Source of the DNA: Ruminococcus flavefaciens AE3010
GTDB taxonomy: Bacteria > Bacillota > Clostridia > Oscillospirales > Ruminococcaceae
DNA: 64,000 nucleotides
Reading direction: 5' to 3'
Assembly: GCF_000526795.1 (NCBI RefSeq)
Contig: NZ_JAGT01000001.1
Location: forward strand, 891,001 to 955,000
The position numbers and the translations under genes are program-made. Positions 2,290 to 53,329 of this stretch are shown here, piece by piece; the stretch's first letter is position 1; every line of letters begins with the position of its first letter. The notes under the pieces were generated by a model, which searched no databases, was not told where the DNA came from, and saw nothing but the letters and a program-made list of their open reading frames with translations.

Positions 2290-4332
2290 TTACCACCTGC
2301 TTACCCTTTCCTCGGGAGCAACATACATTCCGTCGCCCTCTTTCAGATCGTACACCTCATTGAACTTCTTGTTTGAGGCAAGTACAGCATTTACTCTGGT
2401 CTTGGCAGGACTGTGGGGATCAAGCTTCAGCATGGAGATAGCATCGGTATCAACTTCCAGTGTACACCATGACTCAGCATAGCTCTTGAAGAGCTTTTTC
2501 AGCTCCTCCTCGTCATCGATGAGATTTGTAACACATTCGATACCGCTGAGGTCGGCATAGTTCTCGCCGTTGGTAAGCTCGCCGTCTACGTGGTAGACCT
2601 CCATAATGGTATAGTTGCTGTAATACTTTGAAAGTGCATCTGCACGCTCCTTCAGCACCTGTTTATCGGCCTCGTTTATCCAGCTCGGGTCGTACTTTCC
2701 GTCGGGATCGTAGTTTATGCAGGTAGAGTCAAAAGCATGACCTATCTCATGTCCAACTATGCTTCCGAGAGCACCGAGATTCTCGGCATTGTCACCGTTT
2801 GGATCAAACATGGGCTTCTGCATGATAGCAACTGTGATATTTATGCAGTTGGTGGGCAGGTACTGTGCATTGAAATCAGCCGCAGACATATCCACCTCGT
2901 CAAGGCTTACCTTTTCGGGAAGCTTGGCGATCTTGTCAGCAGTTTTCTTTTTCATTATATTGATAGTAGTTTCATAAAGATCAGCTCCTATGAGTTTTGC
3001 GTCCTTTGGATCCTGCTTATGTGGAGTAGGTGTGGTAAGAAGTCTTATACCGTGAAGCTTCTTCAAAAGATGCTTTCTTGTATCGGCAGTAAGCCAGTCA
3101 GCCTTGTTGATAAGGTCGTCGTAGCTGTCTATGATCTCATCGAAAAGGTCATGTATCCCCTTGTCAAGCTCGGGAGTATAATAACGCTCTGCATAGAGCT
3201 CGCTGACAGCAGTGCCGAGATTCATTTGCACTATCATTGCTGCAAGCTTATCTTCAGCTTCCTTGCTCTCGGGATTATAGTCCCTGAGAATATCGTTGCT
3301 CTCGGGGATATATGCGCCCATTTCCTTTAAATAGGACGCGAAGATATATGACCGCCATTTTTCAAGGTTTTCATCGGTTATAAGATCGTTGATAGCCTTG
3401 AGCTGGTCGGGATCGTATATGTATACACCGTCAGTCTTGTTTATTACGTCGCCGATGAACATCTCCACAACAGAGCCGTCAACATTGCTCATTATGCTGT
3501 CAAGATCAGCAAAGGAGGTCTTTTCTGTTGCGATCATCTTTTCAAGAGTCATGCTGTTCTCGGTATCTGTGGCGTTGGCAATATCTATAGCAAGATATAC
3601 CATCTGCTTGCCCTTTTCGTCGGCAGTCTCATAGTCATCGCCCATTACTCTGTGCATATCCCTTGCAATATTGTTTGCGGCAGTACAGTTCTTTGAAAGC
3701 TCCTTGATCTTCTTCATAGAGGTGCCAAGGAAAGTATCAAGGCTGTAAAGCTCGATACAGTAGCGTGTTCCGTCATGGTAGTCTCTTGCAATATTGAAAT
3801 TGAACACAGACTGAGCACCGTAGTTGCGGACAAGGTCGCCCCATATCACAAAGAGCTCCTGAATATCCTTGGCGGCAAGTATCCTGTCGCAGTTGCCCAT
3901 TATCTCGTTTACAACGGCATCGCATTCCTTGTAGTCAATAGCCTGCCTGTAAAGGTCATGGATAAGCTGTTCGTTGGAACCGTCAGGAAATTTCTCATTG
4001 GAATTTCCTATTTCCTTTATCATGTCCTCAATGACATCGTTGACACTTTCACCTGCAAAACGTGATGCAGCCGATTCACCGTATGGTATCTCCATGTTCA
4101 TCAGCGCATCATAGTTGATGTAGTCGTAAAAGTCGTCCTGAGGGCGTCTTTCCGTATCCTTGCTGTCCGACTTTTCCCCGTCGGATTTTTCGTCTTTTGC
4201 TCCGTCAGAATCCCCTGCTTCTGTTTTACTGCTGCCTGACGAATCATCATTAGCCTGCATAGTGCAGCCGCAGACATTCACTGACAGCATTCCCGCAAGC
4301 AAGAGCGAGAGCAGCTTGTGTTTTTTCTGCAT
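2290..4332 (-). CDS. M13 family zinc metallopeptidase, predicted lipoprotein
   Basis: A 680-residue neprilysin/PepO-type endopeptidase. Near residue 528 stands the zinc site HEIGH, and about 60 residues later ENYADLSG supplies the third ligand (the ExxxD motif of gluzincins). The C-terminal DPHSPAKTRVN matches the conserved M13 tail. The N-terminus is a short basic stretch, a hydrophobic core and a Cys in a lipobox-like context (VCGC), then an acidic Ser/Asp/Lys-rich spacer, so it is probably lipid-anchored outside the cell. An open frame extends 16 codons further up, but GGAGG at 4339-4343 lies 6 bases before the ATG at 4332, which decides the start. A consensus promoter precedes it, and an FtsX-type permease follows after 3 bases. 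Confidence 0.9.
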   Translation of the reverse strand: MQKKHKLLSLLLAGMLSVNVCGCTMQANDDSSGSSKTEAGDSDGAKDEKSDGEKSDSKDTERRPQDDFYDYINYDALMNMEIPYGESAASRFAGESVNDVIEDMIKEIGNSNEKFPDGSNEQLIHDLYRQAIDYKECDAVVNEIMGNCDRILAAKDIQELFVIWGDLVRNYGAQSVFNFNIARDYHDGTRYCIELYSLDTFLGTSMKKIKELSKNCTAANNIARDMHRVMGDDYETADEKGKQMVYLAIDIANATDTENSMTLEKMIATEKTSFADLDSIMSNVDGSVVEMFIGDVINKTDGVYIYDPDQLKAINDLITDENLEKWRSYIFASYLKEMGAYIPESNDILRDYNPESKEAEDKLAAMIVQMNLGTAVSELYAERYYTPELDKGIHDLFDEIIDSYDDLINKADWLTADTRKHLLKKLHGIRLLTTPTPHKQDPKDAKLIGADLYETTINIMKKKTADKIAKLPEKVSLDEVDMSAADFNAQYLPTNCINITVAIMQKPMFDPNGDNAENLGALGSIVGHEIGHAFDSTCINYDPDGKYDPSWINEADKQVLKERADALSKYYSNYTIMEVYHVDGELTNGENYADLSGIECVTNLIDDEEELKKLFKSYAESWCTLEVDTDAISMLKLDPHSPAKTRVNAVLASNKKFNEVYDLKEGDGMYVAPEERVSRW

Positions 4333-47319: not shown

Positions 47320-48813
47320 TTAAAATCGCCATTTAATGGTTATTTTTTCACTTGTTGCATATATGACTTTTATCAGCGTATCGACCACTCTGCGCTTGTC
47401 ATCAAAACTCAGTTCTTCCCACATAGTAAGGTGATTGTCAATCTCATCAACAGGGATTTCATTCTTGCGGCTGAGTTCCTTGATGCGCTCATTTATCTCG
47501 TCCTTCCTGACATCAAGAGCATTTATCCTCTCATTTATGTACCGAAACAGAGCATTGTCCGAATCTTTCACCTTTTTGAGAAGCTCCGATATCTCCTTAT
47601 CTATCACAGCCAGCTCGTTTTCAAGCTGAGTCTGCTCAATATTCGGGACTTCATTCTCCGAAGGAGACAGGTGACGAAACTGCGCCAGCTTTTCTTTCAT
47701 TTCATTATATACAACGCTTTCGACTTCATTTGTATACAGAGTTCCCGTACCCTTGCAGGTCTTTGAATTGAGCCTGTTAGAACACCTGAGATAACGTCTC
47801 CGCCCGCCGTCAAACTCTTTAGCAGTAACTGCATATCCGCATACTCCGCACTTGATCTTACCGCTGAGCCATGTATGTTTGGCTTTCTGCACAGGTATCA
47901 TCTGCTTCCTGCCCAGACATTTCTCACGGCATCTGAGCCATACAGAAGACTCGATTATTCCTTTGTGAGGTGCAAGCACTATCTGAGTTCCTTCGATCTT
48001 AGAAATGTCTTTCCTTTCAGCTTCACGGCTCTTGTAACTATAGCAGCCATTCTCACCTATGAAGTCCGATGGCGGATTAACAAGTTCAGCATCGTGATCC
48101 TTGAAGAAATTATACACATCAAGGTCAGCCTTAACATATATGGGATTACTGATTATCTCCCTTATTCTTTGCCTTACCCAGACTTTACCGCGCTTCTTTA
48201 TACCGAGTTCATTTATCCTGTCAATGATATCTCCGTAAGATGTCTGCGGCTGAGAATACATCTCATAGATCATACGAACGACATTTGCTTCCTCGGGAAC
48301 AGGCTCGTACATCGAAGTATGTATACCGTCTATAACGGTAGGTACTGTCCGATAGCCATACGGTATACTTCCGCCCATGAAAAAGCTCCTATGACTTCTC
48401 GAGAAGTATGCGTCCGCTACTCGCTTCTGTATAGTCTCACGCTCAAGCTGAGCAAACACTATACAGATGTTGAGCATTGCATTTCCCATAGGCGACGAGG
48501 TGTCAAACTTTTCAGTGGCAGAAATAAACTGCACTTTGCGTTTACTGAACATCTCAATCATGTTTGAAAAATCCAGTATGGAACGGCTTATTCTGTCCAG
48601 CTTGTAAACGATGACCGTATTTATGAAGCCTTCCCTGATGTCGCTCATCATCTGTGTGAACTCAGGACGGTTTGTATTCTTTCCACTGTAGCCTTTGTCG
48701 ATGTAGGTCTTGAAAGGTTCCCCTCTCGTTTCATATTTGCATAATTCTATCTGTTGCTCGATTGAGATACTGTCCGCACGATCAACAGACTGTCTTGCGT
48801 AAATCGCAATCAC
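47320..48813 (-). CDS. large serine recombinase
   Basis: 497 residues. The resolvase domain (1-150) has YARQSVDRADSISIEQQ with the catalytic Ser and YKLDRISRSILDFSNM. A recombinase domain follows (about 165-280), then a zinc-ribbon CGVCGYAV...CSNRLNSKTC and a coiled coil (about 380-470). Such enzymes integrate and excise phages, ICEs or sporulation-interrupting elements. No phage or conjugation genes surround it, so it may be a remnant or a solitary element. The GTG start at 48813 has AAGGAG 8 bases upstream. Confidence 0.9.
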   Translation of the reverse strand: MIAIYARQSVDRADSISIEQQIELCKYETRGEPFKTYIDKGYSGKNTNRPEFTQMMSDIREGFINTVIVYKLDRISRSILDFSNMIEMFSKRKVQFISATEKFDTSSPMGNAMLNICIVFAQLERETIQKRVADAYFSRSHRSFFMGGSIPYGYRTVPTVIDGIHTSMYEPVPEEANVVRMIYEMYSQPQTSYGDIIDRINELGIKKRGKVWVRQRIREIISNPIYVKADLDVYNFFKDHDAELVNPPSDFIGENGCYSYKSREAERKDISKIEGTQIVLAPHKGIIESSVWLRCREKCLGRKQMIPVQKAKHTWLSGKIKCGVCGYAVTAKEFDGGRRRYLRCSNRLNSKTCKGTGTLYTNEVESVVYNEMKEKLAQFRHLSPSENEVPNIEQTQLENELAVIDKEISELLKKVKDSDNALFRYINERINALDVRKDEINERIKELSRKNEIPVDEIDNHLTMWEELSFDDKRRVVDTLIKVIYATSEKITIKWRF

Positions 48814-51888: not shown

Positions 51889-51935
51889 TCGGATTGTGGT
51901 CCCGAAGACCGTGGGTTCGAATCCCATCTCCCACC
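51889..51935 (+). pseudogene. 3' half of a tRNA-His gene, probable attachment-site scar
   Basis: The sequence carries the His anticodon loop (TTGTGGT), the T-arm GTGGG-TTCGAAT-CCCAT and the acceptor strand CTCCCACC, but no 5' half. It is followed at 51948-51977 by an intrinsic terminator. Integrases often cross over in tRNA 3' ends and leave such pieces. It is separate from, and different in sequence to, the intact tRNA-His at 52542. Confidence 0.75.
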
Positions 51936-51947
51936 CTCATGAAATAG

Positions 51948-52237: not shown

Positions 52238-52266
52238 GCTCCGCCTGACCAATTATCAGACGGAGC
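52238..52266 (-). terminator. terminator of the tRNA array
   Basis: On the minus strand GCTCCGTCTGA / TCAGGCGGAGC (one G-U pair) with a 7-base loop and six T residues. It lies about 9 bases past the 3' end of the last tRNA. Confidence 0.9.
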
Positions 52267-52274
52267 ATTCTTTT

Positions 52275-52369
52275 TGGCGGTCGTACTGAGACTTGAACTC
52301 AGACATCGGAATATTCCGATTACTCACAGTTTAGCAAACTGCTGCCTTACCAGTTAGGCTTATGCGACC
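52275..52369 (-). tRNA. tRNA-Ser (GCU)
   Basis: Class II tRNA with a long variable arm (ATCGGAATATTCCGAT). The anticodon loop reads TTGCTAA (anticodon GCT), reading AGC/AGT. CCA is encoded. The acceptor has one C-A mismatch (GGTCGCA with TACGACC), unusual for a host tRNA. Last of five tRNAs on the minus strand. Confidence 0.9.
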
Positions 52370-52371
52370 AT

Positions 52372-52448
52372 TGGTGACGGATGTGGGATTCGAACCCGAC
52401 ATTTAGAGATTGAGAGCCTCTCGTCCTGACCTGTTAGACGAATCCGCC
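52372..52448 (-). tRNA. tRNA-Glu (CUC)
   Basis: Body 52375-52448 plus encoded CCA. Anticodon loop CTCTCAA gives CTC, reading GAG. Acceptor GGCGGAT / ATCCGTC with one G-U. Almost the same as the UUC isoacceptor at 52617, pointing to duplication. Confidence 0.9.
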
Positions 52449-52452
52449 ATAT

Positions 52453-52538
52453 TGGTGGGCAAGGTAGGAGTCGAACCTACGGTGTATCAAAGTCACGGAT
52501 TTACAGTCCGCTGCAATCGCCACTATGCATACTTGCCC
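52453..52538 (-). tRNA. tRNA-Tyr (GUA)
   Basis: Class II tRNA; anticodon loop CTGTAAA gives GTA. Acceptor GGGCAAG / CTTGCCC is perfect, discriminator A, CCA encoded. Three to four bases separate it from its neighbours. Confidence 0.92.
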
Positions 52539-52541
52539 ATG

Positions 52542-52616
52542 TGGGGTAATCGAAGAGAATCGAACTCTTATTCTCAGAGCCACAATCTGATGTCCTTCCA
52601 TTAGACGACGACTACC
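52542..52616 (-). tRNA. tRNA-His (GUG)
   Basis: The 8-bp acceptor includes the extra G(-1) opposite C73 (GGTAGTCG / CGATTACC), the identity mark of tRNA-His. Anticodon loop TTGTGGC gives GTG. CCA encoded. Its 5' end abuts the CCA of the tRNA-Glu before it with no spacer. Confidence 0.92.
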
Positions 52617-52693
52617 TGGTGACGGATAGGGGGATCGAACCCACTATTTAGAGATTGAAAGCCTCTTGTCCTGACCTATTAGACGAATCCGCC
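52617..52693 (-). tRNA. tRNA-Glu (UUC)
   Basis: Body 52620-52693 plus encoded CCA. Anticodon loop CTTTCAA gives TTC, reading GAA. First tRNA of the array, 12 bases after the HTH gene stop. Confidence 0.92.
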
Positions 52694-52705
52694 ATATTTC
52701 GTCAC

Positions 52706-52930
52706 TCATATTCGAGTGACGATTATTATTTTATCTATCGGAATATCAAACATATCTGCCAGTATTATCAGATTGTCGATAGTAGGCACAGCGTCACCGC
52801 GCATCCACTTGAATATAGCCTGCGGAGTATTGAAACCGCATCTTGCCTGTACATCGGATATCTTGAAGCCTTTGGATTTGATGATATTCTTTATGTTATT
52901 ACCTGTTGCTTTCACATCGATTATAGGCAT
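52706..52930 (-). CDS. small XRE-family helix-turn-helix protein
   Basis: 74 residues forming one HTH_3 domain (IKNIIKSKGFKISDVQARCG; AIFKWMRGDAVPTIDNLIIL). It should bind DNA and could regulate its own operon. AAGGAG lies 9 bases before the ATG at 52930. It stands between an attenuator and the tRNA array with no room for a separate promoter of consensus form, so it is probably co-transcribed with the tRNAs. Confidence 0.8.
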   Translation of the reverse strand: MPIIDVKATGNNIKNIIKSKGFKISDVQARCGFNTPQAIFKWMRGDAVPTIDNLIILADMFDIPIDKIIIVTRI

Positions 52931-52967
52931 CGTGAGCAACTCCTTTCTCTATATTATGATAAAACAA

Positions 52968-52999
52968 AAACACCGCCTGCTTACATACAGACGGTGTTT
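52968..52999 (-). promoter_or_regulatory. attenuator: intrinsic terminator between the leader ORF and the HTH-tRNA operon
   Basis: On the minus strand AAACACCGTCTG / CAGGCGGTGTTT (one G-U pair) with an 8-base loop, then TTGTTTT. The bases GTCTGTATG of the 5' arm and loop (52984-52992) are complementary to CATACAGAT in codons 30-32 of the leader ORF (53061-53069), so an antiterminator of 9 bp can replace it. Confidence 0.8.
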
Positions 53000-53045
53000 A
53001 TCATTTGTATGGATCACAACACAAAGAAAGTGTTCTCCGAAATGA

Positions 53046-53156
53046 CTATCCACTACGTTTATCTGTATGCAGCACAAATAGAGCCTCTTCACTCTCGTGA
53101 TAGAAACTTTCTTCATAGTGTTCGCTATACAGATAGATCATAGTAAACTGTTTCAT
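53046..53156 (-). CDS. 36-residue leader peptide rich in Tyr, Ser, Glu and His
   Basis: The ATG at 53156 has AAGGAG 9 bases upstream and follows a consensus promoter by about 70 nt. Residues 8-24 read YLYSEHYEESFYHESEE. The codons are four TAT, one AGC and two AGT, four GAA and two GAG, and two CAC; only Leu9 and Phe18 are different. Another His (CAT) and Ser (AGT) follow later. These are precisely the codons of the five tRNAs downstream. It has no sign of a folded domain. I infer a regulatory leader peptide, in the style of the trp or his operon leaders, rather than a functional protein. Confidence 0.75.
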   Translation of the reverse strand: MKQFTMIYLYSEHYEESFYHESEEALFVLHTDKRSG

Positions 53157-53230
53157 TTCGGGTAGCTCCTTTCGTAATTATTCTTGTTACAGAGGTCTTT
53201 TTCGACCGTTCCTGTTCTGACTTTATCTGT

Positions 53231-53259
53231 ATTATATCATAGCTTTTTGCAAAAATCAA
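53231..53259 (-). promoter_or_regulatory. sigma-A promoter for the leader peptide-HTH-tRNA operon
   Basis: TTGATT (53254-53259), 17 bases, TATAAT (53231-53236) on the minus strand. Transcription would begin near 53224. A small hairpin GGTC-GAAAAA-GACC lies in the leader before the small ORF. Confidence 0.85.
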
Positions 53260-53329
53260 GTAAACCACAGGTATATTATTTCTGTGCTCAGAAAAATCAC
53301 AATTAAAAATTGTTCATTTTGCAATGTAA

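Follow-up and report, generated by a model that had tools for sequence, protein, structure and literature searches.

Can the transcription of tRNA genes answer to the supply of the very tRNAs that they encode? tRNA genes are generally thought to be set by growth rate and gene dosage, not by codon-specific feedback. The question arises from an operon in the window, our name for the whole stretch of 64,000 nucleotides that was analyzed from the Ruminococcus flavefaciens AE3010 genome (3.7 Mb, 50 tRNA matches). Here, a short ORF rich in Tyr, Ser, Glu, and His codons precedes tRNA genes for the same amino acids. The trp, his, and pheST operons are known for leader-peptide (ribosome-mediated) transcription attenuators, and the window operon shares with them a short translated leader rich in control codons, a terminator, a competing antiterminator, and stalling as the presumed signal. 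Operons of the present kind differ in that the regulated tRNA genes match the control codons, in that many amino acids are represented per leader, and in that an HTH gene, in some cases joined by one for an RNA ligase, is part of the operon. What is new relative to known attenuators is the target: tRNA genes, not genes that make or charge the sensed amino acid. In the open full-text literature, none of the papers listed by our searches describes leader-attenuated tRNA operons. Based on the arrangement of the locus and its relatives, we consider it very likely that in some gut and rumen bacteria, and in a large phage, a ribosome-mediated attenuator senses the loss of charged tRNAs and controls spare tRNA genes that supply replacements.

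The window operon and its predicted switch

What looks like one transcription unit spans 53275 to 52238 on the minus strand, with the following features (basis in parentheses):

53261..53275, minus strand: operator-like inverted repeat TATACCTGTGGTTTA, adjoining the −35 box on its upstream side (motif count over loci)
53231..53259, minus strand: sigma-70-type promoter, TTGATT-17-TATAAT (10/12 match)
53166..53173, minus strand: ribosome binding site GAAAGGAG (sequence)
53046..53156, minus strand: leader peptide ORF, 36 codons / 36 aa, MKQFTMIYLYSEHYEESFYHESEEALFVLHTDKRSG
53085..53135, minus strand: sensor codons 8–24 for Tyr, AGY-Ser, Glu, and His (codon count)
53061..53072, minus strand: antiterminator segment, codons 29–32, CTGCATACAGAT (pairing tests)
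52982..52993, minus strand: 5′ arm of the terminator, which pairs with the antiterminator segment (pairing tests)
52968..52999, minus strand: intrinsic terminator (attenuator)
52706..52930, minus strand: XRE-type HTH gene, from ATG (ATG 52930 with a good ribosome site)
52617..52693, minus strand: tRNA-Glu(UUC), divergent second copy
52542..52615, minus strand: tRNA-His(GUG), divergent second copy
52453..52538, minus strand: tRNA-Tyr(GUA), divergent second copy
52372..52448, minus strand: tRNA-Glu(CUC), divergent second copy
52275..52369, minus strand: tRNA-Ser(GCU), divergent second copy
52238..52266, minus strand: terminator at the operon end

The first-pass annotation of this DNA had described a consensus promoter, a 36-codon ORF preceded by a good ribosome site, an intrinsic terminator followed by an HTH gene, and a five-tRNA array, and all of these are present: the promoter matches at 10 of 12 positions, GAAAGGAG lies upstream of the ORF at 53156..53046, the terminator at 52999..52968 precedes an ORF that matches Pfam HTH_3 (E 1.4e-8), and Glu(ttc), His(gtg), Tyr(gta), Glu(ctc), and Ser(gct) follow at 52693..52275. 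The annotation had also counted 15 of 17 sensor codons as Tyr, AGY-Ser, Glu, or His, and our recount of codons 8–24 (TAT CTG TAT AGC GAA CAC TAT GAA GAA AGT TTC TAT CAC GAG AGT GAA GAG) returned the same number; all Ser codons of the window leader are indeed AGY. For one stretch fixed in advance, this composition has P = 1.1e-10, against a background of 16.0% for that codon set in 15,083 window codons from ORFs of at least 250 aa. The proposed pairing between leader segment and terminator arm extends over 11 bp in the window.

Each array tRNA has a same-anticodon counterpart elsewhere in the window's genome, with 54–66% identity; thus, in this genome, the array tRNAs are divergent second copies. 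T-box riboswitches, which mediate tRNA-dependent antitermination in Bacillota, bind uncharged tRNA directly and have no leader peptide. The window locus differs from them in having a leader peptide, and the T-box covariance model gave no Rfam match at E up to 1 between 51500 and 53700. Known RNAs other than tRNAs were not found above the gathering score at the window locus.

This layout suggests how the switch would operate. RNA polymerase would start upstream of the leader, and a ribosome would translate it. With the cognate charged tRNAs plentiful, the ribosome would pass and the terminator would form before the tRNA genes; with one of them short, the ribosome would stall in the sensor and leave the antiterminator segment free. 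The free segment would then pair with the 5′ arm and disarm the terminator, so that transcription would run on into the HTH gene and the replacement tRNAs and, in one branch, probably into an RNA ligase gene too. A feedback loop on tRNA supply would thereby be closed, with several amino acids sensed at once. If this is true, the availability of individual charged tRNAs feeds back directly on their own transcription, and up to eight amino acids are tested by one leader. The anatomy and evolution of the switch are strongly supported by the comparisons below, and a response to tRNA loss is what we infer as the best reading of them.

Leader codons and tRNA arrays in related loci

Related loci were collected by a search with the HTH protein, of which we took the best 80 of 97; they come from Ruminococcus, other Oscillospiraceae, and some records of Lachnospiraceae and Eubacterium, and with the window they make 81 loci. 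The related operon plan is a promoter, a codon-biased leader ORF, a terminator, usually an XRE-type HTH gene, and a divergent tRNA array. Among the 81 loci (best 80 of 97 plus the window), 72 have a same-strand tRNA near the HTH gene and 75 have a leader. Leaders were picked through HTH homology first and then by a ribosome site and a V-L-x-T-like motif, so the leader set is not blind; seven that the automatic caller missed were added by hand. ARAGORN missed some divergent tRNAs, and arrays may therefore exceed their counted size.

The first-pass annotation had called for a check of whether leader codons co-vary with the array anticodons. Leaders do co-vary with arrays. Taking every leader with a tRNA (67 loci, from the best 80 of 97 plus the window), the sensor holds every array amino acid in 193 of 193 (locus, amino acid) pairs, compared with a mean of 157.7 (sd 4.0, maximum 172) in 5,000 shuffles of the leaders among the loci; loss of the matching codons with the tRNA set kept is seen in none of the 193. 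Leader types share kinship, so permutation counts overstate independence, and with that reservation the observed match score of 17 leader types at 57 loci was reached by 0 of 100,000 permutations and that of 21 leader types, including plasmid and phage units, by 0 of 200,000 (z 6.7). The 57-locus test left out 18 of the 75 leaders by hand as tRNA-less or on short contigs, a few of them (such as L035 and L079) without good reason, and the 21 types are hand-chosen single representatives. Across these 21, an amino acid is commoner in the sensor if its tRNA is in the array for 19 of 20 amino acids, the exception being Met. For six leaders that look unrelated in sequence, the true assignment of leaders to arrays ranks 1 of 720, and this co-variation across unrelated-looking leaders rules out a chance codon run as the explanation. 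The fecal record L149 fits poorly: its own array matches 11 of the 34 residues in its sensor, and three of the other five arrays match more.

Arrays cover 1–8 amino acids. Leader class and array correspond: the arrays are Tyr/Ser/Glu/His for class A (Tyr, Ser, Glu, His), Leu/Tyr/Glu/Ser for class B (Leu, with a sensor lacking His), and Gln/Cys/Phe for class C (Gln, Phe, Cys). Asp or Trp codons show up in leaders where Asp or Trp tRNAs do. The finer match that had been claimed, between codons and individual anticodons, stands at the isoacceptor level for Ser but is loose for Leu. Sensors of the 30 loci with Ser(gct) as the sole array Ser tRNA have 86 AGY and 12 TCN codons, and those of the 43 loci without a Ser tRNA have 86 AGY and 77 TCN; the Leu codons CTC/CTT are present where the array Leu tRNA is Leu(taa) or Leu(cag) only.

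Class A leaders are under purifying selection, with a dN/dS of 0.17 in the main class A group; in three other groups, values of 0.30, 0.47, and 0.79 (the last for class C1) indicate weaker selection. Start and stop are kept within classes, in agreement with the earlier expectation, and the 36-codon length is common to 17 leaders. A 17-aa ORF (MAQFCC...) was considered as the class C leader and rejected, since a 49-aa leader that has the shared start context runs across it in a different frame.

Four of the six leaderless loci lie at contig ends (L032, L042, L050, L056). In L011, the 5′ half of the leader is replaced and the 3′ half continues the upstream reading frame, and L061 has a tRNA array and no leader. 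Nine of the 81 loci (best 80 of 97 plus the window) have no tRNAs; three of their contigs end within about 720 nt, and the other six show none across >4 kb. Five tRNA-less loci with >4 kb checked (L075, L076, L077, L080, L082) keep leader and HTH, with sensor-rich leaders persisting in L076 and L080. This retention would fit a leader that controls the HTH gene alone, the tRNAs having their own promoter and the codon match being historical, and the window does have a 10/12 promoter match at the end of the HTH gene (52749..52722). Such matches are common by chance (13 found versus 7.1 in shuffles), a tRNA lies between leader and HTH in 18 of 75 loci (from the best 80 of 97 plus the window), and two phage leaders described below precede tRNAs with no HTH gene between. 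We therefore regard control of the HTH gene alone as very improbable, and return to a leader that controls the tRNA genes.

The HTH gene turned up in 6 genomes when 118 of the family were searched whole at E 1e-15, and in 4 when 291 of the class were searched at E 1e-12, the window's own included in each. Of the eight others, half have an array preceded by a leader, for Asp in one, Glu/Tyr/Glu in another, Leu/Glu/His in a third, and Leu/Glu/Glu/Tyr/Ser with Gln at a greater distance in the last; in the remaining four, the HTH gene has no tRNA near it. The distribution is thus patchy.

Attenuator pairing, HTH gene, and promoter

A terminator-like hairpin follows 68 of 68 leaders of the first caller, and the leader segment pairs with the terminator arm at −10.9 kcal/mol or better in 67 of them (L080 reaches only −3.5). 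We aligned 46 sequences, the window plus 45 of 62; the Lachnospiraceae-type and phage units, which pair through sequences of their own, are not covered by this alignment. In it, 96.0% of pair cells are paired, compared with 11.8–62.6% when the alignment is slid, and 19 pair cells are changed on both sides versus 6.3 after shuffling, a count that 0 of 500 shuffles reached. The number of pairs with a both-side change is three, which is not unusual (111 of 500 shuffles). When leader tails are shuffled, 26 of 26 units pair below the shuffled mean, 23 of them with z no higher than −2.0; the weak ones are L055 (z −1.0), L139 (z −1.1), and L140 (z −0.9). With shortened arms, several units test weakly, the window among them (z 0.1), and with arm plus loop the window reaches z −2.8; L139 and L140 are weak in both antiterminator shuffle tests. 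Altogether, the antiterminator pairing that had been proposed from the window is kept through compensatory changes. A DNA pattern for the attenuator only found 7 sites in 5 of 60 related genomes, and its reversed control pattern found 0.

The distance from the last cognate codon to the antiterminator segment has a median of 12 nt (3–27, n = 67). The first-pass annotation had further supposed that a ribosome at the stop codon masks this segment. That fits the window, where the stop lies 12 nt past the segment, but does not carry over to 38 of 68 leaders, where it lies at least 24 nt past; termination there must come from re-formed upstream pairing or from kinetics. Upstream re-pairing is partly supported: the 1:2 protector pairing, which would free the terminator to form on an untranslated leader, has a mean z of −1.65 over 24 units, being strong in some and absent in others.

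The HTH protein is highly conserved, with 28 columns unchanged across 17 sequences that were picked to be diverse. In the window, its ORF as called mechanically is 52939..52706, starting at TTG 52939. The inverted repeat motif TAWACCNNNGGTWTA occurs upstream of 47 of 73 leaders and at four other places in the 521,239 bases of the same loci; in inspected examples it sits just upstream of the −35 box. The inverted repeat TATACCTGTGGTTTA is the probable HTH binding site, and the HTH protein probably autoregulates at this operator. The best upstream promoter match is 12/12 in 28 of 73 leaders, compared with at most 10, reached by 3, in 73 shuffled stretches. Whether the tRNAs are transcribed from a start past the terminator only, which the first-pass annotation had named as a refuting case, is judged here from this promoter anatomy.

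Plasmid and phage units, RNA ligase, and the likely trigger

The design is also found on mobile elements. Two units lie on plasmid pRUMAL01 of Ruminococcus albus 7. In the second, leader SYDDYQCFFSFSFDWQDEG accompanies tRNAs for Asp, Gln, Cys, Phe, Gln, Trp, Tyr, and Ser ×4, if every tRNA as far as position 6907 of L145 is assigned to a single array. Three leaders occur in the tRNA cluster of phage records IMGVR_UViG_3300021426_000106 (55 kb) and 3300028591_000074 (253 kb), the latter with a tail-sheath gene a few kb before the array. Leader 1 precedes Ala, Val, Arg, Gly, Arg, Thr, Asp, Pro, and Met tRNAs and leader 2 precedes Phe, Ile, Lys, Lys, Trp, Gln, Cys, Asn, and Arg tRNAs, with no HTH gene between in either case; leader 3 precedes Leu, Leu, a tRNA called Phe(aaa), which we read as Leu(UAA), the HTH gene, and then Glu, His, Ser, Tyr, and Ser. 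Together, the three leaders cover all 20 amino acids. The two records share the core VDPDAIATGRTG of leader 1, with differing starts, and most I, K, N, Q, F, C, and W positions of leader 2. An HTH regulator had been described as part of the operon; it is a usual member, but its absence behind two phage leaders means that it is not essential to the design.

At L150, our script gave seven candidate leader rows (one nested), and three ORFs were accepted as leaders because tRNAs and a terminator follow; a terminator and an antiterminator are present at all three. The remaining rows, which lie in or near tRNA genes, were rejected. The design is present at two of seven IMG/VR loci, L150 and L151; L155 is a separate stretch of the record that holds L151, and no tRNAs were found in L152, L153, L154, or L156. 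Eight phage records have an HTH match, and the three examined vary: L149 has a leader and array, L147 has the HTH gene and tRNAs with no visible leader, and L148 has neither leader nor array. A viral search with one leader motif (80 of 113 matches listed) placed eight matches in short ORFs with a ribosome site, two of them with tRNAs behind, both from already-known phage records. Among plasmid HTH matches, 33 of 34 records are from Ligilactobacillus (38–40% identical among matches listed); the one examined, pMP118, has no tRNAs near the HTH match, and we therefore did not count the Ligilactobacillus plasmids.

Apart from tRNA genes and the HTH gene, the one gene that recurs behind the attenuator encodes an RNA ligase, and does so in a single branch. 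This gene, whose product combines a PHA02142 OB fold with an RNA_ligase domain (PF09414), lies behind the array at 17 of 25 class C loci (truncated in L071 and L079), and seven of the eight class C loci without it have >4 kb of downstream sequence. The ligase is kept in the tRNA-less L075 and L082, and past the array of L142, a locus from a different family, there is a gene 56% identical to it. The window's genome has a Cys and Gln(ttg) tRNA pair, again second copies, with the opening 51 codons of this ligase gene behind it; no leader or HTH gene was seen at this pair. No RNA ligase was found in five phage and plasmid records searched. Judging from its domains, the class C ligase may belong to the DRB0094 family, for which enrichment is reported in phages that carry theta ribozymes and tRNAs (PMC10879173).

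These neighbors bear on what the switch would respond to. An ordinary amino-acid starvation attenuator would have the same architecture as the his, trp, and pheST leaders, and uncharged tRNA would stall the leader as tRNA loss would; the tRNAs would then be carried along or scavenge rare aminoacyl-tRNA. We find starvation distinctly improbable. No biosynthesis, transport, or synthetase gene was recognized among the recurrent neighbors examined (at least 22 ORF clusters, ten proteins scanned), the 1–8 amino acids of the arrays include Ala, Gly, Asp, and Asn in phage, and extra tRNA does not cure an amino-acid shortage. The output is tRNA, with RNA ligase in some cases, not amino-acid synthesis, so the trigger is most likely physical loss of tRNA.

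The same switch would also serve codon-demand homeostasis, in which demand from fast growth or from the codon use of a phage or mobile element outruns supply with no tRNA damage. The second-copy status of the array tRNAs in the window's genome and the shared design of the phage records are consistent with this, but housekeeping copies could be up-regulated instead, and 54–66% identity to those copies looks more like a substitute than a supplement. The RNA ligase points to damage as well, and its linkage is our main reason to prefer tRNA damage as the trigger; codon demand thus seems unlikely to us, if less so than starvation.

For tRNA damage, anticodon nucleases of toxins or of phage defence are a plausible natural trigger. 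Recovery from such nucleases was a purpose that the first-pass annotation had raised, and the RNA ligase behind the array in one branch lends it support. Phage tRNA arrays have been proposed to offset tRNA depletion by anticodon nucleases (PMC10264068); the spare tRNAs are alike here, and conditional codon-matched control is a feature of the present operons that the abstract of that study does not mention. The rsr-yrlBA-rtcBA RNA repair operon is induced by broken tRNAs, with the CARF protein RtcR binding tRNA fragments (PMC7790460). As outlined in that source, it too is an RNA-ligase operon, and it differs from the present one, in which we infer codon-specific stalling and whose ligase has PF09414 and PHA02142 domains where the other has RtcB. 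In mycobacteria, tRNA depletion by VapC toxins stalls ribosomes in small ORFs (whiB7), which is thought to relieve attenuation (PMC10287673); as outlined there, the output is a stress regulon, unlike the depleted tRNAs themselves.

We tentatively suggest, at somewhat less than even odds, that bacteria, plasmids, and phages share a form of tRNA insurance: cleavage-resistant spares, tested codon by codon by the leader of their operon and turned on only when nucleases of host or invader destroy the housekeeping tRNAs. If true, a large phage with three leaders tests all 20 amino acids and replaces whatever the host defence cuts, and the leader is a ready-made reporter of the tRNAs attacked in nature. 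This would also help explain redundant, divergent tRNAs in some bacteria and phages; phage tRNA redundancy is described as a debated question (PMC10264068). Leader composition can also serve to predict which tRNAs an array holds; for L057, it points to Asp and Trp tRNAs past the contig end.

Unusual array tRNAs

The array tRNAs with Leu anticodons depart from the usual bacterial tRNA-Leu, which has a long variable arm. Across the 81 loci (the window plus the best 80 of the 97 matches to the HTH protein), all 50 of the 50 Leu-anticodon tRNAs near HTH genes are 73-81 nt long and lack this arm (e.g., L014 and L037), while the tRNA-Leu of the window's genome measure 84-87 nt. At another of the loci (L046), the array includes a tRNA called as Arg(gcg), which looks like a Ser(gct) array tRNA with an altered anticodon.

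A Tyr-type tRNA at two loci, L010 (4247-4364) and L007, carries an insertion of ~35 nt in the region of the anticodon loop. This tRNA was missed by ARAGORN; its covariance model score is 30.4 bits (L010).

Possible signs of integration

The HTH gene of L281 seems to be interrupted by an integrated prophage-like element, and the window's genome includes a stray 54-nt piece of the HTH gene (L002; 94% identity; G000:C1:235100-235153). Together, these suggest that the HTH gene may be an attachment site.

Within the window, a 48-nt stretch at 51889-51936 (+) exactly matches the 3' portion of the housekeeping tRNA-His in this genome. It lies within a few kb of a 497-aa ORF (47320-48813), which we read as a serine recombinase. 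Based on this identity and the nearby ORF, the 48-nt piece is possibly an integration scar.

Array neighbors and phage inserts

Two features were found close to arrays:

L036 5390-5515, yjdF azaaromatic riboswitch, close to the tRNA array
L034 3697-5883 (-), Schlafen group 3 helicase gene, adjoining a class A array (Tyr/Ser/Glu/His leaders); a single case

In the three-leader tRNA cluster of an IMG/VR phage locus (L150), two long inserts without evident genes (2230-2640 and 2717-3013) lie between tRNA genes; they are possibly ribozymes or introns.
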